Source: Solirubrobacteraceae bacterium
GTDB lineage: Bacteria > Actinomycetota > Thermoleophilia > Solirubrobacterales > Solirubrobacteraceae
DNA: 64,000 nt
NCBI GenBank assembly: GCA_029263125.1
Contig: JAJCYD010000029.1
Span: 1 to 64,000, forward strand
Reading direction: 5' to 3'
Below are positions 282 to 10,246 of this stretch, piece after piece (position 1 is the first letter of the stretch; every line of letters begins with the position of its first letter). A program made the translations under genes and the position numbers. Under the pieces are notes generated by a model. It made no database searches. It saw only the letters and a list, made by a program, of their open reading frames with translations, and was not told the DNA's origin.

Positions 282-695
282 CTAGCTCGCCTTGAACCCG
301 TCGAGCCACTCAAAGCCGAGCGGCCCGAGAACGGCGAGATGGATCGCTCCCATTCCATAGTCGTCGAGGAGCACGTACTCGATCGCTCGGCAGCCAACTA
401 CGGCGTCGAACTCGCGGCTGGCATCGCGCAACTGCGTCAACGTCGCGCTGGCGCGGTCAAGGTCTTCGCGGGCACCTGCCTCGGTGACGAAGTCGATTCC
501 CCACGAACTCTGCACGGCAGCGGTGAACGCTTCGGGGCTCGGCCGACCGCCGCGGTCTCGACCGTTCCAGAGGCCGATGCCTCGGTAGAGGACGGTTTCG
601 GCGTCTGCCGTCGTCAGCAGCTCAAGCGCACGTTGCCAGCGCTGGCCGCTGGGCTCGTCAACGTGGAAACCACTTGGGCCGACCATGCGGCGCAT
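282..695 (-). CDS. Hypothetical protein, 137 aa
   Basis: I do not recognise a family. The reading frame continues upstream of the chosen ATG, but only the part after it has the balanced composition of a real protein; the upstream part is arginine/proline-rich, as in shadow frames. Residues 1-137 look like a small soluble alpha/beta protein with an alternating helical middle (about residues 75-105) and a hydrophobic C-terminal third. No signal peptide or membrane segment is visible. It lies downstream of, and on the same strand as, the lipoprotein gene at 878-1294, with 182 bp between them, so co-transcription is possible. The neighbourhood (hsdS remnant, RadC, Mrr) is accessory, so this may be an island cargo gene. 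Start choice is uncertain. Confidence 0.55.
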   Translation of the reverse strand: MRRMVGPSGFHVDEPSGQRWQRALELLTTADAETVLYRGIGLWNGRDRGGRPSPEAFTAAVQSSWGIDFVTEAGAREDLDRASATLTQLRDASREFDAVVGCRAIEYVLLDDYGMGAIHLAVLGPLGFEWLDGFKAS

Positions 696-877
696 CGTAT
701 GGCGACTATGGCTTTCGCCTGGTTGCGGTAGCCGCGCTTGACTTGCGGCCGGATCCGCAGGCTGGTCCGTTTCGGGACGACGAACCGGCGCTGACCGACG
801 CGTCGGCTCGTCGCACTGCCGAACCTTGTGCGGGGCGGATGGCGGCCGCCGGTCATGCCTACCCAAGGACAGGCCGC

Positions 878-1294
878 TCAGTGGAAGACAAAGCGGAACC
901 GACGCCCGTCTGTCGCCGCACACGCCACGCGTAGGGGAGCGTATTGGCTGCCGTCCTGCTCGATATCGCACGTGTACCCAGCAGCCGTCTGACTGGTTCC
1001 GCCAGGGTGCGGCGCGAAGTGCTTGAAGACGAACTCGCCTACTGCTTCGCACGACATGTCAGCAGAGACCTCCCAGTCCGTTCCGCCGCCCTTCGCCCAA
1101 GCGGTCTCGGGGCAACGCTCGAGCTCGGCCACCTGCGCGACCGCTGACGCTGGTGAGTCCATCGCAGCTGGCGACGCACTGCTCACTTGTTCGTCGCTGC
1201 ACGAAGCCAGGACAAGCCCTGCGGAGAGGAGAGCTGCCGTCAAGATGGATCGTGCGCCAGCGACCGCCCGACGGTTCTCCGACATGAGTCGCAT
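878..1294 (-). CDS. Secreted lipoprotein, 138 aa, unknown function
   Basis: The N-terminus has basic residues, a hydrophobic stretch (about residues 15-31) and a lipobox reading L-A-S-C, so the mature protein should begin at Cys32 and be anchored to the outer face of the membrane. A Ser/Ala-rich linker follows, then a roughly 90-residue domain. That domain has four further cysteines (in ELERCPE, DMSCEAV, YTCDIE and VACAA), which could form two disulfides outside the cell. No enzyme motif is visible. It may be a ligand- or inhibitor-type cell-wall lipoprotein such as those common in actinobacteria. An ATG three codons further in (MSENRR) is an equally possible start. Confidence 0.7.
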   Translation of the reverse strand: MRLMSENRRAVAGARSILTAALLSAGLVLASCSDEQVSSASPAAMDSPASAVAQVAELERCPETAWAKGGGTDWEVSADMSCEAVGEFVFKHFAPHPGGTSQTAAGYTCDIEQDGSQYAPLRVACAATDGRRFRFVFH

Positions 1295-1453
1295 GATCCC
1301 GATACGCGCGGCGGCGCGCGATAGGTCCGGGAGCTACTGTGCTCGTGGCTCCAGACCAGCGCCCCAAGGCCGCTCTGCCAGAACCCGAGAACGGTCCTAC
1401 AGCGGACGTGAGAATGCCGGCAGGCGACCGGGCCCGCGAGATCGGCGGCGTCC

Positions 1454-1895
1454 GGCGGCGGAGAGCGTCGGCCTGGCGTGGAACTTCTCGGCTGCGTGGC
1501 GATGCACGTCGAGAGCAAGCTCAACGGATGGGAGGGGGGCGGTCGCAGTCGTCGACAGCGCCTTTCACCACACCCACGTATCGAGCGAGTTCCCGACCTT
1601 CGTCGTCGACGAGAGCCGGCTGCTCCCAGGCTTCTTTCGAGGCATCGCGCGCTCCCGCGCGTTCTGGGATCAGCTCGATCAGACCGTGCGCGGCAGCATG
1701 GTCCGTCGCCGCCGTCTCAGTGGTAGCGACTTCATGCGCGCGCAGATCTGGCTTCCCCCGCTCGAACACCAGATCCGCGTATCTCGCGAGATCGATGCGC
1801 TGGATCGACTGACCGAGCGGTCGGGCCAGTGCGCCACCAGAGCGGCGGCGATCGTCCCGGCCATCCTCAACCGCGAGTTCACAGCGCTCGCGTAG
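1454..1895 (+). pseudogene. hsdS: Type I restriction specificity subunit (HsdS), C-terminal remnant with frameshift
   Basis: The second target-recognition domain of an HsdS can be read across two frames. The first frame gives HVESKLNGWEG and the next gives AVAVVDSAFHHTHVSSEFP, followed by a G-S-x-V-R-R-R-R-L stretch and the conserved LPPLEHQ linker. A terminal helix ends in AIVPAILNREF. Removing one G from the six-G run at about 1535-1540 joins the two frames exactly. HsdS normally has two recognition domains and about 400 residues; only about 140 residues survive here, without N-terminal domain, hsdM or hsdR. The 3' end overlaps the convergent radC end by 17 bp. It is therefore a decayed gene, unless the G run is a sequencing error or a phase-variable tract in a half-subunit. 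Confidence 0.7.
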
Positions 1896-2598
1896 GGACT
1901 ACCGCCCAGCCACCGTCGCCCACCACGACGTGCCCGAGGAATCGCAAACCGACGACCCGCGCCGCCTCGGCGATCCGATGCGTGGCGGCGATGTCCGCGT
2001 CGCTCGGCTCCGGGTTCCCGCACGGATGGTTGTGCGCGACCGCGAACGCACGCCCGTCCCAGCGCAGCGCGGCGTTCAGGATCTCGCGCACGGGCATCAG
2101 CGATCGGTCGATCGCGCCGTCGGAGACGACCACCGTTCGCAGCGGACGGTCGGCCGCATCGCAGACGATCGCGATCACACGCTCGCGACGTAGGCCGCCG
2201 ATCTCACGGCGTGCGATCGCTTCAACCTCAGACGGCCCGCGGATCACATCCGGTGCAGGCGACCCCTCGATACGACGCGCAAGCTCCAGAGCCGCCGCCA
2301 GCACGGCCCCGACCTCGATGGGGAGCGACGTTGTCGCGACGGCACCGTCGGACAGGGCGGTGGTCGGCTCTGGCCCCCCGCCGTCGAACCAGCGGGCGAC
2401 GCTCACCCACGTCTCCTCAGCGAGCTCGAGCCGTTGGCAGATCGTCCTGAGTAGCGTTGCGGTATCGCGACGAGTCATGTCGTGATCGAGCTGGCGCTCC
2501 CGCAACTCGTGCACCGCAACCAGCATCGCGTCGAGCGTATGCGCGCTACCGCTGGTCACCAGGCGTCTCCGCTGAATCGGCATGAAGTTGTTCGCCAA
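1879..2598 (-). CDS. radC: RadC-family JAB/MPN-domain protein
   Basis: The C-terminal half (about residues 125-239) carries the JAB/MPN metalloprotease-like motif of the RadC family: H-N-H-P-C-G followed by N-P-E-P-S-D-A-D, giving the H-x-H...D zinc ligands. A G-H-V-V-V-G-D strand follows. The N-terminal 120 residues do not show the helix-hairpin-helix DNA-binding repeat usual in housekeeping RadC; they look helical and unrelated. Short RadC variants like this are common on mobile and defence islands, where their biochemical role is unclear. It is flanked by an hsdS remnant and an Mrr nuclease, which fits that picture. The reading frame opens with TTG at 2598; an ATG five codons later (MPIQRRR) is the alternative start. 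Confidence 0.85.
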   Translation of the reverse strand: MANNFMPIQRRRLVTSGSAHTLDAMLVAVHELRERQLDHDMTRRDTATLLRTICQRLELAEETWVSVARWFDGGGPEPTTALSDGAVATTSLPIEVGAVLAAALELARRIEGSPAPDVIRGPSEVEAIARREIGGLRRERVIAIVCDAADRPLRTVVVSDGAIDRSLMPVREILNAALRWDGRAFAVAHNHPCGNPEPSDADIAATHRIAEAARVVGLRFLGHVVVGDGGWAVVPTRAL

Positions 2599-2656
2599 TT
2601 GAGCGATTCTCAGGCTACGCGTGACTTTGACCCGGCCGTCTTTCCGGAAGTTCGCG

Positions 2657-3616
2657 CTATGCGCCCGATTCGCTTCGGGTGGCGGGCGGCGCCGGCACGT
2701 CCTCGTCGGTCACGAAGTAGTCGAGGTCCAAGCGCTTCACGTCGTAGCGCCGCGCGCTCGTCACCCCGACCGAATGTTCGATCATCAGCTGGGCGAGCTC
2801 CTTGCCGTCAAGCAGGATCACGCGTGGCGTCACGCCGTCGGCGTACTCGACGGCCTCGCGGCTGAACGCCGACGTCGTGATGAACACACCTTTGGTCGCC
2901 CGCCGGCCATGGAGCGCCCCGAAGAACTTCTGGATCTCCGGCCGCCCGACGACGCCCGCCCAGCGCTTGGCCTGGACGTAGATGAGGTCGAGTCCGAGCG
3001 GGTCTTCTCGGATTACGCCGTCGACTCCGCCGTCGCCGCTCTGGCCCAATCGCTCGGCCGTTCCCCGGCTGCCGCCGTATCCCATCGCATGCAACACGTC
3101 GAGCACAAGCTGTTCGAAGAATGCCGGGGACTGCTCGGCGATGCTGTCAAGGAGATCGACGGCGAGGGCTGCGCGGAGGGTCCCGAAGGCCTCCTCTATC
3201 TGCTCCTCGGGGGTGTGCACGCTTGCCTCCTGCGCTCCTACCGGGGCCGTCCTGGCAGTCTCCCGAGAGCCCGCCGCTCCGCGAAACTCCGCAAACTCTT
3301 CGAACTGCGAGAGCACTCGCAGGTCGACGCGCTCAGGGTGTCGCGCAAGCACGTCCCTGCCACGGTCGGTGATGCGGTAGACCGCGCGCCGGGGACGAGC
3401 GATGAGCCCCGTGTTGTAGAGGTGGCTCGTCGCCCACCCCACGCGGTTCTGGAAGGTCGTCACGCGTCCGCTGGGGATGCGTTCCGCGAGTTCGTCATCG
3501 GTCAGCGCGAAGTGCGTCGCGAGCTCGTCCCTGATCGCCGTGATCGCGTGCGCTTCGCCGTCGGCGAGCAACGCAAGCAGCGGACGCATCGCGGTCTGGA
3601 AGTCAGGGACAGTCAT
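2657..3616 (-). CDS. mrr: Mrr-type type IV restriction endonuclease
   Basis: The N-terminal part (residues 1-95) is a winged-helix DNA-binding domain of the Mrr_N type, ending in the usual Y-R-I-T-D-R-G pattern. The C-terminal part (about 155-290) is the Mrr catalytic domain of the PD-(D/E)xK nuclease superfamily. It has a helix with F-F-E-Q-L-V-L-D-V-L-H-A-M-G-Y, then G-D-G-G-V-D-G (catalytic Asp) and Y-V-Q-A-K-R-W (the Q-x-K half of the active site). Mrr enzymes cut DNA carrying foreign methylation. At 319 aa it matches the usual family length of about 300, and all key residues are present, so it is probably functional, unlike the neighbouring hsdS. The tRNA-Pro gene starts 144 bp beyond its 5' end. 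Confidence 0.93.
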   Translation of the reverse strand: MTVPDFQTAMRPLLALLADGEAHAITAIRDELATHFALTDDELAERIPSGRVTTFQNRVGWATSHLYNTGLIARPRRAVYRITDRGRDVLARHPERVDLRVLSQFEEFAEFRGAAGSRETARTAPVGAQEASVHTPEEQIEEAFGTLRAALAVDLLDSIAEQSPAFFEQLVLDVLHAMGYGGSRGTAERLGQSGDGGVDGVIREDPLGLDLIYVQAKRWAGVVGRPEIQKFFGALHGRRATKGVFITTSAFSREAVEYADGVTPRVILLDGKELAQLMIEHSVGVTSARRYDVKRLDLDYFVTDEDVPAPPATRSESGA

Positions 3617-3727
3617 CGCACCAAGACCCTATTCGGGAGTGCCGACGGCGCACCCAGGGATGCACCGCGGACATTTGGACCCCGAATGGACCCCGCCGCG
3701 CTATTCGCGATGATCCCAGGAACGACA

Positions 3728-3749
3728 CAAAAGCCTGCAAACGCAGGCC
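3728..3749 (-). terminator. Intrinsic terminator after tRNA-Pro
   Basis: On the minus strand, GCCTGC-GTTT-GCAGGC forms a 6-bp GC-rich stem with a 4-nt loop followed directly by TTTTGTGT. It begins 11 nt beyond the tRNA-Pro 3' end and is a good rho-independent terminator for the tRNA transcript. Confidence 0.8.
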
Positions 3750-3759
3750 TTTCCTCGAG

Positions 3760-3833
3760 TCGGGGAGACAGGATTTGAACCTGCGACCGCCCGGCCCCCA
3801 GCCGGGTGCGCTACCAGACTGCGCCACTCCCCG
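3760..3833 (-). tRNA. tRNA-Pro (anticodon GGG)
   Basis: The reverse strand folds as a cloverleaf. The acceptor stem is CGGGGAG/CTCCCCG with discriminator A. The anticodon stem CCCGG/CCGGG encloses CTGGGGG, giving anticodon GGG, and the T-loop reads GGTTCAAATCC. CCA is not encoded. Its 3' end points toward the restriction genes at 0.3-3.6 kb, the usual geometry for an integration site. Confidence 0.95.
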
Positions 3834-3844
3834 TGGCCGGACTA

Positions 3845-3915
3845 AGCGGGCGACGGGAATCGAACCCGCCCTAAAAGCTTGGAAGGCTTTTGTGCAGCCA
3901 CAACACTTCGCCCGC
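3845..3915 (-). tRNA. tRNA-Gly (anticodon TCC)
   Basis: The reverse strand gives acceptor stem GCGGGCG/CGCCCGC, anticodon stem AAAGC/GCTTT around CTTCCAA (anticodon TCC), and T-loop GGTTCGATTCC. It lies 11 nt upstream of tRNA-Pro on the same strand, so both probably share one transcript ending at the terminator at 3728-3749. Confidence 0.95.
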
Positions 3916-3955
3916 ACACCCCCGAGGAGGATACCGCTCGATCGCCGGGCGGTGG

Positions 3956-4100
3956 TCAGCCGCGGATCTGGCGCCGCACGCGATTGAGCACGGCCGGCGA
4001 CGTCGAGACTTGCCGTCGGTGCCGATGAACGCCGAAACCGAGCTGTCGCCGTTGGTCGACGAACTCCAGTGATAGACGCAGATCCGCGTGATGCGCTTGC
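3956..4100 (-). pseudogene. Short decayed coding remnant, possibly the C-terminus of a secreted glycosidase-like protein
   Basis: One minus-strand frame gives R-I-C-V-Y-H-W-S-S followed by A-F-I-G-T-D-G-K. A neighbouring frame continues with S-P-A-V-L-N-R-V-R-R-Q-I-R-G and a stop. Together they resemble the tail of glycoside-hydrolase-like extracellular proteins (tyrosine-tryptophan strand, then a D-G-x-P-R-P-A-like segment before the last helix). The two halves need a frameshift and nothing upstream extends them. I call it a remnant only tentatively; the rest of the 387-bp interval between tRNA-Gly and tRNA-Trp shows nothing else. Confidence 0.3.
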
Positions 4101-4302
4101 CAACCGCCCGCGGGCGTCCCCACCTTCCCTGCACCGCCCGCAACCCCGGCGGCCGTGGCGGGCGCCTCGGCAAGGCTACGGCCGCGGCGCACACGCTCAG
4201 GATCCAGGCATTTGAGGCGGATCACGGCGGACCGTGGACAATCCACGATGCAATCTGCTCCTGCGAGACGCCAATGACGAGCGCACGTGGCGGGGGCGGC
4301 AA

Positions 4303-4375
4303 CGGGGCACGCAGGACTCGAACCTGCAACCCCCGGTTTTGGAGACCGGTGCTCTGCCAATTGAGCCAGTGCCCC
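4303..4375 (-). tRNA. tRNA-Trp (anticodon CCA)
   Basis: The reverse strand gives acceptor stem GGGGCAC/GTGCCCC, anticodon stem CCGGT/ACCGG around CTCCAAA (anticodon CCA), and T-loop GGTTCGAGTCC. The discriminator base is G, as expected for bacterial tRNA-Trp. It is not linked to secE/nusG here, unlike in many bacteria. Confidence 0.95.
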
Positions 4376-4430
4376 GTGCGGCTAGGAGGCTAGCGCAGCC
4401 CTTGTGGAGCGGTTACGCGCGCCACGATGG

Positions 4431-4468
4431 TTGCGGACGCAATCATTGGGTATGATTGCGCATGCAAT
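4431..4468 (+). promoter_or_regulatory. yceI promoter/operator with two TTGC-N4-GCAA dyads
   Basis: Two palindromes of identical design, TTGC-ggac-GCAA (4431-4442) and TTGC-gcat-GCAA (4456-4467), sit 25 bp apart start to start. Their inner halves also form a perfect 9-bp inverted repeat, CGCAATCAT-tgggt-ATGATTGCG (4438-4460). A good -10 hexamer, TATGAT, occupies 4451-4456 between the dyads. This is the expected form of a MarR-type repressor operator overlapping a promoter; the yceI start codon is 28 bp downstream. The regulator is not adjacent. Confidence 0.7.
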
Positions 4469-4495
4469 TACTTTTCGACTTCGAGGAGCACGAAC

Positions 4496-5044
4496 ATGGG
4501 CACCACGGCACCAGCGCTGCAAGCAGGAACCTGGAACGTCGATCCGTCGCACTCGCGCATCGGATTTCGCGTCAAGCATCTCGGCATCTCCACCGTGCGC
4601 GGTGACTTCGGCACGTACCAGGGGAGCCTGTTGATCGCCGAGGATGGCTCGCTCACGGCGCAGGGCACGGTCACGGTGGATTCGATCGACACGTCCGACC
4701 AGCAGCGCGACGGCCATCTGAAGTCGCCGGACTTCTTCGACATCGAGAACCATCCGGAGCTGGCGTTCACGTCGACCTCGATTACGGCGGCCGGCGATGA
4801 GACCTTCGAGATCGCCGGCGATCTGACGATGCACGGGATCACCAAGCCGGTGACCCTGAAGGCCGAGGTCGGTGGCGCGGAGACCGATCCCTTCGGCAAC
4901 GACCGTATCGGCCTGGAGGTCACGGGCGAGATCAGCCGCGACGAGTACGGCATGAAGTTCAACCAGGCGCTCGGCAGCGGGAACCTTGCCGTCAGCGACA
5001 AGGTCAAGCTCGATCTCGACATCTCCGCGATCAAGCAGTCCTGA
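4496..5044 (+). CDS. yceI: YceI family lipid-binding protein
   Basis: The protein starts W-N-V-D-P-S-H-S-R-I-G-F, the signature opening strand of the YceI beta-barrel. Family blocks follow: V-K-H-L-G-I-S-T-V-R-G-D-F, a K-S-P-D-F-F-D motif, and H-G-I-T-K-P-V-T-L near the C-terminal third. YceI proteins bind isoprenoid or polyisoprenoid lipids in an elongated lipocalin-like barrel. There is no signal peptide, so this copy is cytosolic, as is common in actinobacteria; length (182 aa) is normal. The frame is open further upstream, but ATG 4496 is preceded by GAGGAG at 7-nt spacing, and the upstream codons cover the operator, so I chose it. It is probably monocistronic and repressed through the dyads upstream. 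Confidence 0.93.
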   Translation: MGTTAPALQAGTWNVDPSHSRIGFRVKHLGISTVRGDFGTYQGSLLIAEDGSLTAQGTVTVDSIDTSDQQRDGHLKSPDFFDIENHPELAFTSTSITAAGDETFEIAGDLTMHGITKPVTLKAEVGGAETDPFGNDRIGLEVTGEISRDEYGMKFNQALGSGNLAVSDKVKLDLDISAIKQS

Positions 5045-5113
5045 GCCGCCTGAGATGCAGCCGTCCGGCCGAGCCGGTGTCGCGAGGTACTGTGCGCGTC
5101 GATCCGCGAGGCG

Positions 5114-5998
5114 ATGACTTCCACGGACACACCCATGCTCCCGGCCGCGCTGCGTCTCGGGCCGACCCATCTGACGGTGTCCGACCTGGGCGGGTCGATC
5201 AGCTTCTACGAGCGCTCGCTCGGGCTGCGCCTGCGCGATCGCGACGGTGACGTCGCCCGGCTGGGCACCGGTGGCGAGGACCTGCTCGTCCTCACCGGCG
5301 TCCACGGAGCGGGGCTCGGCGGGCGCCATGCCGGGCTCTATCACGTGGCGCTGCTGATGGACTCCCGTGAGGAGCTTGCGCGAGCGATCACGCGCCTCGC
5401 CGAATCGCAGACGCGCATCGAAGGTGCGTCCGATCACGGGGTCTCGCAGTCGATCTACCTGCGCGACCCCGACGACAACGGCATCGAGCTGTACGCCGAC
5501 CGGCCGCGCGACCAGTGGCCGGCGCCGCGCCATCCGGGCGAGCGCGTGGACATGTTCACGATCGCGCTCGATATGCAGAGCCTCCTGGCGACGGTCGCCG
5601 ACGAGCCACCCTCGGCGCGCGCGCGAACGGGCATGCGCACCGGGCACCTGCACCTGCACGTCGCCGATCTGGACGGCGCGCTGGGCTTCTACCGCGACAT
5701 CCTGGGGTTCGAGGTCATGGCAGGACTGCCCAGCGCGTCGTTCCTCTCCGCCGGCGGATATCACCACCACCTCGGGATCAACACCTGGCTGGGCACCGAT
5801 GTCCGGCCGCGGCCGCGGATGTCGGCGGGCCTGCGCCATTGGACGATCCTGCTTCCCGGTGGCACCGACGTCGATGCGGTCCGAGGCCGTGTTGAGGCCG
5901 CGGGGCTCGAAGCCAAGCCGTCTGAGGATGGCCTGCTCGTCGAGGATCCGTCTCAGATCGCTGTGCTGATCGCGATCGATCCTGACGCGACGCGGTAA
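5114..5998 (+). CDS. VOC-superfamily protein with two glyoxalase/dioxygenase domains (CatE-like)
   Basis: Two vicinal-oxygen-chelate domains are visible, about residues 12-135 and 175-290. The first has L-G-P-T-H-L-T-V (metal His), G-L-Y-H-V-A-L-L and G-I-E-L-Y-A-D, whose Glu is the third ligand. The second opens with T-G-H-L-H-L-H-V-A-D-L and continues F-Y-R-D-I-L-G-F. This resembles the CatE-type catechol 2,3-dioxygenase-like proteins of Gram-positive bacteria, which act on a small aromatic or related substrate using Fe or Mn. The His/Glu set looks complete in domain 1 and less so in domain 2. The start is ATG with GAGGCG just upstream. It lies 69 bp after yceI, so read-through from that promoter is possible. 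The substrate cannot be deduced. Confidence 0.85.
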   Translation: MTSTDTPMLPAALRLGPTHLTVSDLGGSISFYERSLGLRLRDRDGDVARLGTGGEDLLVLTGVHGAGLGGRHAGLYHVALLMDSREELARAITRLAESQTRIEGASDHGVSQSIYLRDPDDNGIELYADRPRDQWPAPRHPGERVDMFTIALDMQSLLATVADEPPSARARTGMRTGHLHLHVADLDGALGFYRDILGFEVMAGLPSASFLSAGGYHHHLGINTWLGTDVRPRPRMSAGLRHWTILLPGGTDVDAVRGRVEAAGLEAKPSEDGLLVEDPSQIAVLIAIDPDATR

Positions 5999-6143
5999 GC
6001 GACAGGAATCCAGGGCACCGAAGTTGAACATAGCCGCGCGCTACAGCCGTGAGGGCGCGCCGCCCTGAAAGCTCTTGCGCACGTCCACCAGCTGAAGAAC
6101 CGGCTCGGAGCTCACTTCCTCCTCCGGCCCGGCCCGGCGGCGA

Positions 6144-6419
6144 TCAGCGTCCGGCACCGCCGCCGCCGGACATCGCGCCCATCATCGCGACCATCATCGC
6201 CACGCAGAGCACTGCCAGGAGGACGAAGCTTGCGCCGGCCACGCCCGTCGCGACGAGGACGACGACGATCGCCACCATCGGCACGCAGCACGCGATCATC
6301 ATCCAGCGGCCATGACCGCCGCCGCTCTTCGGCCGCTGGGGCGAGCCGTCGTGACCGTCGAGCTGCGAGCCGTCCTGACTGTCGAGCTGCGAGCCGTCCT
6401 GACCGTGGAGCTGGTTCAT
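6144..6419 (-). CDS. Small membrane protein with repetitive N-terminus, 91 aa
   Basis: The N-terminal 30 residues are built from an eight-residue repeat (Q-L-D/H-x-x-D-G-S), encoded by a 24-bp tandem repeat. A hydrophobic region follows (about residues 38-84) that can make two membrane helices with methionine-rich surfaces (A-M-M-V-A-M-M-G-A-M), and a Gly-rich tail. Its start codon overlaps the stop of the upstream gene (6416-6655) by 4 bp (ATGA), so the two are translationally coupled. I do not recognise a family; the methionine-rich helix could suggest metal interaction, but that is speculation. Confidence 0.65.
   Translation of the reverse strand: MNQLHGQDGSQLDSQDGSQLDGHDGSPQRPKSGGGHGRWMMIACCVPMVAIVVVLVATGVAGASFVLLAVLCVAMMVAMMGAMSGGGGAGR
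6342..6413 (-). repeat. Three 24-bp tandem repeats inside a coding region
   Basis: Units lie at 6342-6365, 6366-6389 and 6390-6413, each CGAGCCGTC followed by a near-identical 15 bp. They differ at one or two positions each. They encode the hydrophilic Gln/Asp/Gly/Ser repeat at the N-terminus of the 91-aa membrane protein. Unit length is a multiple of three, so copy-number changes keep the frame. Confidence 0.9.
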
Positions 6420-6655
6420 GCCGGCCCTCTCAGCGATGGCGGCACGTGGCCGAGCTTGCGATACAGCGGGCAGTGGCCGAGGGCTCCGGTGACCAGCAGG
6501 TCCAGGCCGGCCAGCACGAGGAGGAGCTCCAGGACGATGGCCAGCGCGCCGCCGGCCGAGGCGAGCAGCATGAGACCTCCGATCACGCCCAGCGAGCCGA
6601 GCGCCACGCGAGCCGAGCGCTCCAGCGGAGTGATATTCACGAGGGGGCGCTTCAT
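6416..6655 (-). CDS. DUF2892 (YgaP transmembrane domain-like) inner membrane protein
   Basis: The 79-residue protein begins M-K-R-P-L-V-N-I-T-P-L-E-R-S-A-R, the usual cytosolic opening of DUF2892, followed by two membrane helices. It closes with T-G-A-L-G-H-C-P-L-Y-R-K-L-G, the conserved Cys-Pro-Leu-Tyr signature. The family is linked to rhodanese and sulfur-handling proteins (YgaP) but its own role is unknown. ATG 6655 was chosen because AAGGAG sits 7 nt upstream and the family start aligns there; the frame itself is open 12 codons further up. It is the first gene of a two-gene minus-strand operon with the 91-aa membrane protein. Confidence 0.88.
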   Translation of the reverse strand: MKRPLVNITPLERSARVALGSLGVIGGLMLLASAGGALAIVLELLLVLAGLDLLVTGALGHCPLYRKLGHVPPSLRGPA

Positions 6656-6819
6656 CGTTGCTCCTTCGATGGTTGACGACAGATAGGCCATCGACTGTAG
6701 CTCGCGCCTCCTACAGCGCGTCGGTATTGCTACGAGAGATCAACCCGTAGTTCTCCGCAGGTACCTGCGTAAAGTGCCCGCTGGCAGCGCCGGCTCGATC
6801 CTCCTACGGTTTGTCTGAC

Positions 6820-7182
6820 ATGCGCGGGGTGCTCACGACAACGACGACGACGCTGCCGCTCGCAGACGCGTGGGGCATGCACGACGTGGGGACGGGCTGG
6901 TGGATCGTGATGATGCTCGCGATGGTCCTCTTCTGGGCGGCGCTGATCACCGGCCTCGTATGGGTCTCGCGAGGCGGCTCGCAAGGCTCTGCCCGGCGCG
7001 ACGAGGGCACCCCGACCGATGTCCTGAACCGCCGCCTGGCCGAAGGCAGCATCACGCCGCAGGAGTACGAGGAACGTCGCGAGCTCATGGCCGGCGGCGC
7101 CGGGACCCGATCAGCGTCGGCGCCGGACGACAGCGTTGGCCGCGCACCCGCCGAGGGCCCCGGACCGGGGAAGCGCGCGTGA
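6820..7182 (+). CDS. SHOCT-domain small membrane protein
   Basis: One membrane helix (W-W-I-V-M-M-L-A-M-V-L-F-W-A-A-L) is followed by a linker. Then comes the short SHOCT motif, P-T-D-V-L-N-R-R-L-A-E-G-S-I-T-P-Q-E-Y-E, and a disordered charged tail. SHOCT modules are oligomerisation or anchoring tails of membrane proteins with no known catalysis. ATG 6820 is one option, a TTG nine bases upstream another. A third is the ATG at 6877 (M-H-D-V-G-T-G-W-W), which matches how many family members begin. The stop overlaps the GTG start of the cytochrome b gene by 4 bp, so it belongs to that operon and may assist assembly of the cytochrome. Confidence 0.8.
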   Translation: MRGVLTTTTTTLPLADAWGMHDVGTGWWIVMMLAMVLFWAALITGLVWVSRGGSQGSARRDEGTPTDVLNRRLAEGSITPQEYEERRELMAGGAGTRSASAPDDSVGRAPAEGPGPGKRA

Positions 7183-8267
7183 GCGGCACGCCCGCAAGCG
7201 CGGACTCCGGCGCGGGCCGTGCGGGCGTCCTGGGATGGGTCGACGATCGCTTCGGCCTGGATGCCCTGCGCTATGCGGTCCCGCACCACGCCAACTCGCT
7301 CGCCTACACCCTGGGCGGGATCACGATGGGAAGCCTCGTGCTGCTCGTGGTCACCGGCGTGTACCTCGCGCAGTTCTACGACCCGACGCAGGCGGGCGCC
7401 CACACGAGCGTCGTGTACATCACCGACACGGCTTTCGCGGGAGCGCTGATCCGCAGCCTGCACTACTGGCTGGCGACGGCATTCGTCGCCGCGCTGGTGC
7501 TGCATATGATCCGCACGTTCGCGACGGCGTCCTTCAAGGCACCGCGTGAAGGGATCTGGATCACCGGCATCGTCCTCTTCCTGCTCGCCGCCGGGTTGCT
7601 GTTCAGCGGCACGGTCCTCAAGCAGGATCAGGAGGCGCTCGAGGCGCTGGCCCACAACGACGAGATCGCACGGCTGTTCGGTTTCGCGGGATTCTGGTTC
7701 TCCGCCGACTTCACCAACAACGTCTCGGTCGTGACGCGGCTCTACATCGCCCACGTCTCGATCCTGCCGGCGTTCGTCGCAGCGGCGCTGGCGGTCCACA
7801 TGCTGCTCATCAAGCGCCATCGCATCTCGCCCCTGCCCTGGGGCACGCCGGAGCAGATCGCCGAACGCGAGCGCTCCGAGCCCAGCCGCACATTCACTAG
7901 CCACCTCGATCACATCGGCATGTGGACGGTCGTCCTGCTGGGGCTGGTTCTGATCCTTGCCGGCCTCGCGCCCGCCGGCCTGGGCCCGGCTGGGGTCGCC
8001 GGCATCGAGATCACAAAGCCTCCCTGGTACTTCCTGTGGCTGTATCCGTGGGAGGACTGGATCGGGCTCGCGGCGCTCTACATCATCCCGGCGATCCTCG
8101 TGCTCGGGCTGCTGTCGATCCCCTTCCTGGACCGCTCGGACCAGCGCGACCCGCGACGGCGCAAGCCGTGGATGGTGCTCGCGGCAGCGGTCGTCGCAGC
8201 CTGGCTGGCGTTGACGATCTACGGAGCCGTCTCCGTTCCGGTGTCCCACACGGGTATGGGGGGCTGA
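7179..8267 (+). CDS. Cytochrome b/b6-type membrane protein
   Basis: This 362-aa membrane protein has the four-helix cytochrome b core with two haem-ligand His pairs: H95/H109 on one helix and H192/H207 on another. The second pair is spaced 15 apart, as in cytochrome b6 rather than mitochondrial-type cytochrome b. The C-terminal part (about 245-355) resembles the subunit IV region, with K-P-P-W-Y-F-L-W-L-Y-P in place of the classical PEWY Qo-site motif. Such proteins oxidise quinol as part of a bc-type complex. No Rieske or cytochrome c gene is adjacent, so the electron acceptor is unclear. GTG 7179 overlaps the SHOCT stop (GTGA). Confidence 0.9.
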   Translation: MSGTPASADSGAGRAGVLGWVDDRFGLDALRYAVPHHANSLAYTLGGITMGSLVLLVVTGVYLAQFYDPTQAGAHTSVVYITDTAFAGALIRSLHYWLATAFVAALVLHMIRTFATASFKAPREGIWITGIVLFLLAAGLLFSGTVLKQDQEALEALAHNDEIARLFGFAGFWFSADFTNNVSVVTRLYIAHVSILPAFVAAALAVHMLLIKRHRISPLPWGTPEQIAERERSEPSRTFTSHLDHIGMWTVVLLGLVLILAGLAPAGLGPAGVAGIEITKPPWYFLWLYPWEDWIGLAALYIIPAILVLGLLSIPFLDRSDQRDPRRRKPWMVLAAAVVAAWLALTIYGAVSVPVSHTGMGG

Positions 8268-8271
8268 GGTC

Positions 8272-8472
8272 GTGGACCAGCGCTTCATCGCCGCGTTCAT
8301 CGTCGTCACCGGCGCGCTCGCGGCGGCCATACAGCTCACCGGCCGAGCGGTCGCCGACGGCGGGACGGTCGTGACCGTGCTGGCTGCGCTCGCCGGATCC
8401 TTCGCTGTCCTGGGCTCGATCGCGCTGGTCCGCGTCGTCGTGATCGTCGAACGAGAACGCAGGCGGCGGTGA
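8272..8472 (+). CDS. Small two-helix membrane protein, 66 aa
   Basis: Two hydrophobic helices (about residues 5-22 and 33-58) are followed by a short basic tail (R-E-R-R-R-R), predicting both ends on the cytosolic side. GTG 8272 lies four bases after the cytochrome b stop, and its own stop overlaps the GTG start of the next gene by 4 bp. Tight coupling on both sides argues that it is a real subunit or assembly factor of the cytochrome b operon. I see no family signature. Confidence 0.7.
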   Translation: MDQRFIAAFIVVTGALAAAIQLTGRAVADGGTVVTVLAALAGSFAVLGSIALVRVVVIVERERRRR

Positions 8473-9011
8473 GACGGGTGCCCGGCATATCGCCGACGCT
8501 CGCGCTCGTCGGCATCCTGGCGGCACTGCTGGCCTTCCCCGCCGGCGCTCTGGCCCATGGAGGCGAAGCCGACGAGGCCAGCGAGCCTTCGGCGGGCGTC
8601 GAGCAGCGTTCGCCCGAAGCGCAGGTCGAGGAGCTCTCGATCCAGCCGGCTCGCGTCCTGGCCCAGCAGGCGTTGTCGACGCTGCGGGTTCTCGACGACG
8701 TCGAGGACGCCGCCATCCGGCTGGACGCGGCGCTGCTGAGCAAGGACGACAGCGACGTCGACAGCGCGCTGCTGCGCAGGGCGACCGAGACCTTGGACGG
8801 CGGCAGCCCGCAGGCCGCCATCGCGCTGCTCGACGAGGCGCTCTCGCGTCCGCTGGGCTCCGACAGCGGCAAGGCTCTGCATGCGGCCGGGCGCGAGTTC
8901 CGTCCGGCCACCGGCACCGAGGAGCTCGTCGCCATCTCGCTGGGCGCGCTGCTCGTCGCGATCGGCGCGGCAGCCCTGTGGCGAACGCGGACCGCGGGAC
9001 CCCGCTCGTGA
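8469..9011 (+). CDS. Envelope protein with signal peptide and C-terminal membrane anchor, 180 aa
   Basis: A signal peptide (hydrophobic residues about 10-28, cleavage near A-L-A-H-G) is followed by an acidic Ala/Leu/Asp-rich helical domain. A C-terminal transmembrane helix (about 155-172) ends in a short basic tail. The protein should therefore sit in the membrane with its helical domain outside. There are no cysteine pairs or haem motif, so it is not a cytochrome. It may be an accessory protein of the cytochrome b operon. It begins with GTG overlapping the previous stop. Confidence 0.72.
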   Translation: MRRVPGISPTLALVGILAALLAFPAGALAHGGEADEASEPSAGVEQRSPEAQVEELSIQPARVLAQQALSTLRVLDDVEDAAIRLDAALLSKDDSDVDSALLRRATETLDGGSPQAAIALLDEALSRPLGSDSGKALHAAGREFRPATGTEELVAISLGALLVAIGAAALWRTRTAGPRS

Positions 9012-9024
9012 GCAGTCGACGCCG

Positions 9025-9729
9025 GTGACCGCGCTCCTCGACGACCTGGACGTCCTGCTCGGTCGCTATCACGGCGACGTCCGGGCGACGTATGACGACG
9101 TCGCCGACCGCTACGACCGGTTCCGCGCGCTGTGGCTGCGGCTAGCCGGCGGGGAGGCCGAGCAGGCCATGCTCGACGACCTCGACGACACGCTGTCCCC
9201 TGGGCAGAGCGTGCTCGACGCCGGCGCCGGCACCGGCGCGCTCTCGCGCGAGATCCTCAGCCGCCAACCTGGCGCCTCGATCACGATGCTGGACCTGTCG
9301 CCGCGGATGCTGGCGCGCGCCGACGACCTCCCGGCCGTCAAGACGGTTGGAAGCATGCTCGAGATCCCCTTCGAGGACAACAGTTTCGACATCGTCGTGA
9401 GCGCCTGGGTCATCGAGACGGTCGCCGATCCGATCGGGGCAGTTTCCGAGTGCCTGCGTGTGCTGAGCCCCGACGGGCACCTCTACTACAGCTTCTGCTC
9501 GCTGCCCGACGGCTGGCTGTCGCTCGCCGGCTCGGCGCTGCTGCGCGCCGCGGTGAAGCGCGGCTTCGCGGGGAGCTTCCTGGCTCCCGAGCACACTCCG
9601 TGGCATGACTGCGACCGCTCGCACATCCGGCGCTTCCGCGGCGGCCTGACCACTGAGATCGCGCTGCGCAAGTGCTGCTCGGTCGGCCCCGAGACGCTGC
9701 CGGACGCACAGGCAGGCAGACGTGGATGA
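9025..9729 (+). CDS. Class I SAM-dependent methyltransferase (UbiE/Methyltransf_11 type)
   Basis: Motif I of the Rossmann methyltransferase fold is clear (V-L-D-A-G-A-G-T-G-A-L-S, about residues 66-77). An acidic ribose-binding position follows at M-L-D-L-S, then a motif II/III region F-D-I-V-V-S-A-W-V-I-E and R-V-L-S-P-D-G-H-L. The C-terminal cap carries Cys and His residues (H-D-C-D-R-S-H). The substrate is unknown; quinone or lipid methylation would suit the neighbouring quinol-oxidising cytochrome b. GTG 9025 lies 13 bp after the preceding stop, so it is probably the last gene of the SHOCT-cytochrome operon. Confidence 0.85.
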   Translation: MTALLDDLDVLLGRYHGDVRATYDDVADRYDRFRALWLRLAGGEAEQAMLDDLDDTLSPGQSVLDAGAGTGALSREILSRQPGASITMLDLSPRMLARADDLPAVKTVGSMLEIPFEDNSFDIVVSAWVIETVADPIGAVSECLRVLSPDGHLYYSFCSLPDGWLSLAGSALLRAAVKRGFAGSFLAPEHTPWHDCDRSHIRRFRGGLTTEIALRKCCSVGPETLPDAQAGRRG

Positions 9730-10246
9730 ATAGCCGCAGGTCAAGCTCGGCGCCGGCGCGCGGTCTGACCTCGTCCGTCACGCGCTCGGCAGGGGGCTGC
9801 GGCGGGACGTGTGAGGAGCGCGGGTGCCGGCCGTTGATTCTTCCGGGTAGCCGTGGTACGGCGACCATGGCAAAGCGCGGCTGCTCGAAATGCTGTGCGT
9901 GACTCGTGCGTCCTCTCGTCGCAGAGGTCGGTACGGGTGCTGCTCGATTGCACCGTAAGGGGCGGCGGGGCCGGACCAACCGTGCGAGTCGGTCGTGCTG
10001 GATCGTGCAAACCACGGATGCCACGCGCGCACCATCCCGCCGCGCAGGACGGCTCGCGTCCAGGTCGCACCGGCGCGTCGCTCATGCCGCCGTGCAGCCC
10101 AACTGCCGCCGGTCAGCGTCTGTGGCTGCTGCTGGCGGCAGCCGCGAGAACCGTGTATGCCCGCGAGCTGACTCGTAGATTCCACGCTGGTCGACCCGCC
10201 GGGACAGGGTCAGCATCGGGGTGCAAACGACGCTGGAGGCAACCCC
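9730..10246 (+). other. 517-bp interval without a supportable gene
   Basis: Frames on both strands are short and biased toward Arg/Pro/Ala, as in shadow frames. The interval lies between the methyltransferase and a broken uspA, so it may be decayed sequence. The only compact reading is an 11-codon ORF with three cysteines (M-A-K-R-G-C-S-K-C-C-A, near 9870), which I do not consider evidence of a gene. Confidence 0.5.

Follow-up and report, generated by a model that had tools for sequence, protein, structure and literature searches.

Positions 1 to 64,000 of contig JAJCYD010000029.1 from a Solirubrobacteraceae bacterium (GenBank assembly GCA_029263125.1) were analysed as one stretch, hereafter called the window, and its positions 6,820 to 9,729 hold a row of five plus-strand genes that includes a cytochrome b with no Rieske gene nearby. 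The cytochrome b (7179..8267, GTG start, 362 residues) is a fusion of cytochrome b6 and subunit IV with seven transmembrane (TM) helices. It is preceded by a gene for a one-TM SHOCT-like protein (6820..7182; Pfam E 8.5e-4, under the family cut-off) and followed by genes for a small two-TM protein of 66 residues (8272..8472), an exported helical protein of 180 residues (8469..9011) and a class I methyltransferase (9025..9729; Pfam Methyltransf_11, 2.7e-21). The exported protein has a signal peptide, a predicted mature N-terminus at His30 (8556–8558) and a C-terminal TM anchor. Start and stop codons overlap as GTGA between the SHOCT-like and cytochrome b genes (7179–7182), and again between the two-TM and exported protein genes (8469–8472). 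A longer cytochrome b open reading frame (ORF) beginning at 6870 was dismissed, because its N-terminal stretch overlaps the SHOCT-like gene and homology puts the start at 7179.

A first-pass annotation of the same sequence had described an orphan operon in which a cytochrome b with b6-like histidine spacing is coupled to all four neighbours, Rieske and c-type partners being absent. This earlier observation holds in its main points and is overall partly confirmed, its interpretation being partly supported. The window protein belongs to the bc/b6 cytochrome b superfamily by its haem histidines, Pfam matches and fold. It matches Cytochrom_B_N_2 (3e-25), Cytochrome_B (9e-25) and Cytochrom_B_C (4e-4), the last two with 88.1 and 21.0 bits against cut-offs of 27.2 and 20.7. 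Alignment to solved cytochrome b6 identifies the haem ligand pairs as H95/H109, spaced 14, and H192/H207, spaced 15, a 15-residue spacing being typical of b6; the described spacing was correct. The structure model, made with 35 sequences, has a mean predicted local distance difference test score (pLDDT) of 89.2 and matches bc1 cytochromes b over nearly its full length (best Z 29.9, root mean square deviation 4.3, 342 aligned residues).

Relatives were sampled in several ways. A whole-protein search found a close copy in two of the 232 genomes of the order, one being the window's own and the other (G046) carrying a relative of 72% identity. At E 1e-36, matches occur in 13 of the 399 genomes of the class sample and 12 of the 396 of the phylum sample; some of these are canonical (L074, L075), and the orphan type is present in at least six and at least 11 genomes, respectively. 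One genome per species was then scanned with a cd1-segment alignment, giving 173 stretches, 158 of them confirmed, while a pattern scan seeded with the window protein alone gave 46 matches, none confirmed. The best 80 of the 158 come mainly from Chloroflexota and Actinomycetota, and also from Deinococcota, Nitrospinota, Bipolaricaulota and single archaeal bins. Four of them (L078, L112, L128, L151) were dropped as repeats of other sampled genomes, and the remaining 76, together with 13 loci from the genomes of the similarity searches and the window itself, make up the 90 loci discussed below. The cytochrome b frame is broken in L072 and L062 by a frameshift or sequencing error and was left as is.

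In the alignment of 87 orphan rows (76 from the scan and 11 found by protein similarity) and 61 canonical rows, the four haem histidines in helices B and D are present throughout (87/87 and 61/61). The two groups differ in the outer quinol pocket. The cd1 helix of every orphan row carries Glu155 and His159 (codons 7641..7643 and 7653..7655 in the window), a pair found in none of the canonical rows. His357 in the C-terminal tail (8247..8249) is kept in 86 of the 87 orphan rows, the remaining one having a gap, versus six canonical rows. Where [KQ]-P-[ED]-W-Y is expected, the window protein reads K-P-P-W-Y (residues 280–284, 8016..8030), as had been noted before. No orphan row (0/87) has the acid of the PEWY/PDWY motif, and Pro, Leu, Trp or another non-acidic residue takes its place; of the 24 canonical rows that cover the motif, 22 have it (Asp in 12, Glu in 10, Ala in two). 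In canonical complexes this acid works opposite the Rieske cluster. The 76 scanned rows were collected through the pattern [TS]GT[VI][LM][KR][WQ]DQ, so its own columns are biased; His159, Glu155 and His357 lie outside that pattern, and the 11 rows found by similarity have all three. Standard topology and the modelled helices place His159, Glu155, the PPWY loop and His357 on the outer (p) side, and from these conserved differences the orphan branch is judged to have a rebuilt outer quinol pocket.

A likelihood tree calculated with the cd1 columns removed, and without five orphan rows that were too short or broken, puts a single branch between the 82 orphan and the 61 canonical rows, with a Shimodaira–Hasegawa-like approximate likelihood ratio test (SH-aLRT) value of 99. 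The phylogeny that the first-pass annotation proposed as a check came out as a separate branch. Since the tree search was quick and the branches are long, we regard the orphan cytochromes b as likely, rather than proven, to form a distinct branch.

The absence of partner genes was also confirmed, in that the 64-kb window contains neither a bc-type Rieske motif nor a c-type cytochrome. For comparison, 40 of the 76 loci were hand-picked across phyla, and the flanks of the orphan cytochrome b, 7 kb each way, were set against the equivalent flanks of a canonical cytochrome b in the same genome. A bc-type Rieske motif lies near one of the 40 orphan genes versus 34 of the 40 canonical ones. A CXXCH-containing ORF is present near nine versus 35, and an HCH-type oxidase motif near six versus three. 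Across all 76 loci bc-type Rieske genes are close by in two (L125 and L137), that of L125 adjoining its own canonical cytochrome b; among the 13 additional loci there is a single Rieske motif, 6.9 kb off at L064.

The 3.75-Mb source genome (95% complete, 53 contigs) has five Rieske-domain hits. Only one of them, on contig C8, carries the bc-type motif, and its gene has a b6 gene directly after it and, next in line, a frame containing PEWY and CXXCH. The motifs of three others (L001, L002, L003) resemble those of ferredoxins or oxygenases, and in the last (L004) none was detected. The idea that orphan-carrying genomes do without any Rieske protein proved false, as a PF00355 match is present in all 40 of those searched, many such matches probably being oxygenases.

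The two small proteins downstream have counterparts at most loci. A two-TM ORF of 50–115 residues starts no more than about 60 bases after the cytochrome b end at 63 of the 90 loci. Exported partners were assigned with profiles stripped of signal peptide and anchor, as profiles including them merged the two types; with these, 80 of the 90 loci have an exported partner, helical at 40 and Ig/TIG-like at 40 (a weak likeness), never both. This split largely tracks phylogeny. The model of the window's exported protein consists of helices and a C-terminal membrane helix (TM 150–175; mean pLDDT 80.6). In Pfam the helical subunit gave weak TPR-like and YfdX matches alone, and in a sequence search of the PDB its best match was a designed zinc-binding helical protein (E 0.0017). 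Cleavage sites read by eye give a mature chain that begins with His in 61 of the 80 partners (24 of the helical and 37 of the Ig-like type), with Asp in 15 and with another residue in four; a strict automatic rule gives His in 47 and Asp in 16, with 17 uncalled. With one and the same detector, a mature N-terminal His was found in 20 of 32 partners versus four of 146 other signal-peptide proteins of the neighbourhoods.

The first-pass grouping of the five genes was right in part. The two small membrane or exported proteins are conserved, and SHOCT-like proteins recur: an ORF of this kind lies within 7 kb of 18 of the 76 orphan loci versus none of 40 canonical ones, or nine versus none in the 40 same-genome pairs. 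The methyltransferase is not conserved; it has no homologue at L058 and elsewhere gives weak generic methyltransferase matches, and was dropped as a complex subunit, probably lying outside the conserved complex. Because the three-gene set is kept across phyla and the methyltransferase is missing at L058, the five-gene 'operon' reduces to a core of three conserved genes, with SHOCT as a recurring neighbour. The same conservation of cytochrome b, two-TM and exported proteins contradicts the notion of a one-off orphan. At L058 (7100–7450), which is the closest relative, the cytochrome b has no usual start codon and its frame continues that of the SHOCT gene in register, a single TGA standing between them; this is either an assembly error or an unusual start.

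Other neighbours are less regular. The window contig, 102,630 bases long, begins at window position 1, so that only 6.8 kb lies upstream of the SHOCT-like gene. Divergent from the operon are a YgaP-like TM protein (6416–6691, minus strand) and a 91-residue membrane protein (6144–6419, minus strand), both with matches in L062, where the matching ORFs immediately precede a CPC-type P-type ATPase. Further upstream (4427–5044) is a YceI-family protein (Pfam 4.3e-46), a family that binds isoprenoid quinones. GAF-type histidine kinases were seen at 27 of 94 loci (for example L093, 9986–11242) and LuxR-type regulators at 24 of 94, duplicates included and each family name resting on one representative; these neighbours suggest redox or hypoxia control.

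Metal-related genes are frequent around the orphan cytochromes b. Within 7 kb, a P1B ATPase is encoded at 14 of the 40 orphan loci versus one of the 40 canonical ones, a YHS protein at 11 versus none, and a loosely defined cupredoxin-like motif at 19 versus two. Within six predicted genes, P1B ATPases of the CPC and CPD types are found at 27 of the 90 loci. CPD-type enzymes occur near L082, L094, L095, L101, L104, L114, L123, L126, L129, L138, L064 and L069, and the majority of them carry an M[SA]GSS motif. Four plasmid records match an Arthrobacter member of the family, all labelled 'cytochrome b N-terminal domain-containing protein', and in the plasmid records examined the partners are labelled 'hypothetical protein'. 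On Streptomyces plasmid pFRL4 and S. mirabilis plasmid pI, 'hypothetical' genes (the helical partner and a small protein) flank the cytochrome b, with SHOCT and heavy-metal ATPase genes on both sides; the partners on these Streptomyces plasmids begin with Asp. A Pseudarthrobacter plasmid has a heavy-metal ATPase about 10 kb from the cytochrome b.

The loci compared thus show, at the level of predicted genes, that a cytochrome b with seven helices and two haems recurs together with a small two-helix subunit and a C-terminally tethered exported subunit in the absence of nearby Rieske or cytochrome c genes, and we consider it highly probable that they constitute a distinct Rieske-less membrane complex. 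The complex would act as a transmembrane electron conduit, oxidizing menaquinol at the inner (Qi-side) site and passing electrons from haem bH to haem bL and on to the outer pocket, a direction of flow that we infer. There the His/Glu pair and the C-terminal His would stand in place of the lost PEWY Glu. The exported subunit would carry the acceptor or receive it, and the His with which its mature form usually begins could bind copper by analogy with YcnI or CopC. The most likely task would be to reduce or handle extracytoplasmic copper or a copper protein, a task perhaps shared with the metal-export ATPases and cupredoxin-like proteins encoded near many carriers. Electron transfer from menaquinol to copper is feasible, and the oxidation of Cu(I) by menaquinone would be uphill. 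The chances of the combined proposal, namely a distinct Rieske-less complex serving as an electron conduit to an extracytoplasmic and probably copper-related partner, seem to us evenly balanced, and a copper-linked function as such we propose tentatively, at somewhat worse than even chances.

Several observations weigh against this proposal. The window lacks a P1B ATPase, a YHS gene or other copper context of the kind seen at relatives. Metal genes gather in accessory islands, and the canonical control lies in a core operon, so that part of the metal-gene enrichment may reflect island location; for these two reasons we grade the copper link as suggestive. An obligatory mature N-terminal His is ruled out by the partners that begin with Asp or another residue, the columns of the helical subunit hold no second invariant His, and Foldseek found no PDB fold match for this subunit at E 0.001 or better (best E 0.86). 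All of the 40 orphan-carrying genomes encode, besides some Rieske-domain protein, at least two cytochrome b hits, and at L137 (a Meiothermus-type bin, 555–9835) 3.7 kb separates the orphan cytochrome b from a bc-type Rieske gene. This gene is the sole Rieske neighbour in the 76 loci that does not adjoin its own cytochrome b, and it sits amid CsoR-like, cupredoxin-like and P-type ATPase-like genes (names assigned by eye).

The last two points, together with the bc-type fold and haem ligands, would fit a second bc/b6-type complex that borrows a housekeeping or distant lone Rieske protein and runs a modified Q cycle, with which the gene content of the 40 genomes is compatible. The first-pass annotation had named a distant Rieske protein as one option; it is kept alive by L137 and the 40 genomes but weakened by the source genome, whose one bc-type Rieske is encoded with its own b6 and PEWY/CXXCH subunit. 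The same-genome comparison and the non-acidic residue in place of the Rieske-facing acid also speak against it, and we hold it to be improbable. The other option named there, a different electron acceptor, gains support from the acid loss in all 87 rows, from the rarity of nearby Rieske genes and from the other fixed partners. Copper might then be a cofactor of the acceptor rather than a substrate, as in an oxidoreductase that passes electrons from quinol to a cupredoxin, or another high-potential carrier, and so feeds a terminal oxidase or periplasmic reductase. The excess of cupredoxin-like motifs near orphan genes agrees with this, as do a sulfocyanin-like protein above the Pfam cut-off at L123 and just under it at L065, and Ccm-type genes (names by eye) that adjoin the L065 cytochrome b; however, no cupredoxin is a fixed partner, and several such domains are fused to or lie beside P1B ATPases (L097) and may serve these. 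We rate this explanation as unlikely, though a serious contender.

The kinases and regulators mentioned above, and DsbD-type and thioredoxin-like neighbours at some loci, could instead mean that the complex acts as redox donor in disulfide or thiol chemistry, or as input to a sensor, within stress islands; the invariant columns of the cytochrome b and the exported subunit contain no conserved cysteines, and this is very unlikely. It is scarcely credible that the gene is what remains of a bc complex in decay: the spread is indeed patchy, with the two close copies in the order, but the frame is open, all four haem ligands are kept over several phyla together with dozens of invariant residues, and the partners stay linked. 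A bolder form of the copper-linked conduit would be a Rieske-free Q cycle, with quinol bifurcated at the rebuilt outer site, copper on the N-terminal His of the tethered subunit as acceptor, and His159 and His357 completing or docking the site. This is a long shot; if true, the Rieske head would have given way to copper carried on a mobile, membrane-anchored arm, in a new energy-conserving cytochrome b complex.

A bc/b6-type cytochrome b is normally read as a sign that a Rieske/cytochrome b complex is present, and annotations that score orphan genes as complex III would be wrong. The orphan branch makes it possible to test directly which features of the quinol-oxidizing pocket the Q cycle requires and which only the Rieske protein does, and it suggests a new path by which electrons of the quinone pool could reach copper or copper proteins outside the cytoplasm. 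Searches of the open literature, which leaves out most subscription journals, turned up no account of the complex; in the accessible part of the paper on S. mirabilis plasmid pI, the one mention of a cytochrome concerns c oxidases. The family is apparently a broad, undescribed variant of the cytochrome b complexes.

Compared with the cytochrome b6/subunit IV of b6f, bc1 and bcc complexes, the orphan type shares the fold, the four haem histidines with b6 spacing, and the N- and C-terminal domains, but it differs in having no nearby Rieske or cytochrome c genes, no PEWY/PDWY acid, different small subunits, the cd1-helix His/Glu pair and the C-terminal His. The best NCBIfam match is ExtP, a b-type cytochrome of selenite and tellurite reduction operons (NF040969), over window residues 36–217, with a score of 133.9 bits versus a cut-off of 290; with its 205 positions, this model covers the N-terminal domain only. 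The PepSY_TM/ferric-cupric reductases, for example CrpH (PMC13038864), resemble the orphan complex in the job proposed for it, the haem-mediated delivery of electrons to an extracytoplasmic metal, although they are an unrelated protein family and the window cytochrome b has no such Pfam match. The exported partners lack Pfam matches to YcnI (DUF1775) or CopC, have Asp for His in 15 of 80 cases, and are either of no known fold match (helical type) or weakly Ig/TIG-like. Most of them nevertheless resemble YcnI and CopC in that the signal peptide is followed directly by a mature N-terminal His. According to the report on YcnI (PMC12154828), the N-terminal His of the Bacillus subtilis protein holds Cu(II) on a membrane-anchored extracellular protein, which, like the orphan partner, has a C-terminal membrane helix.

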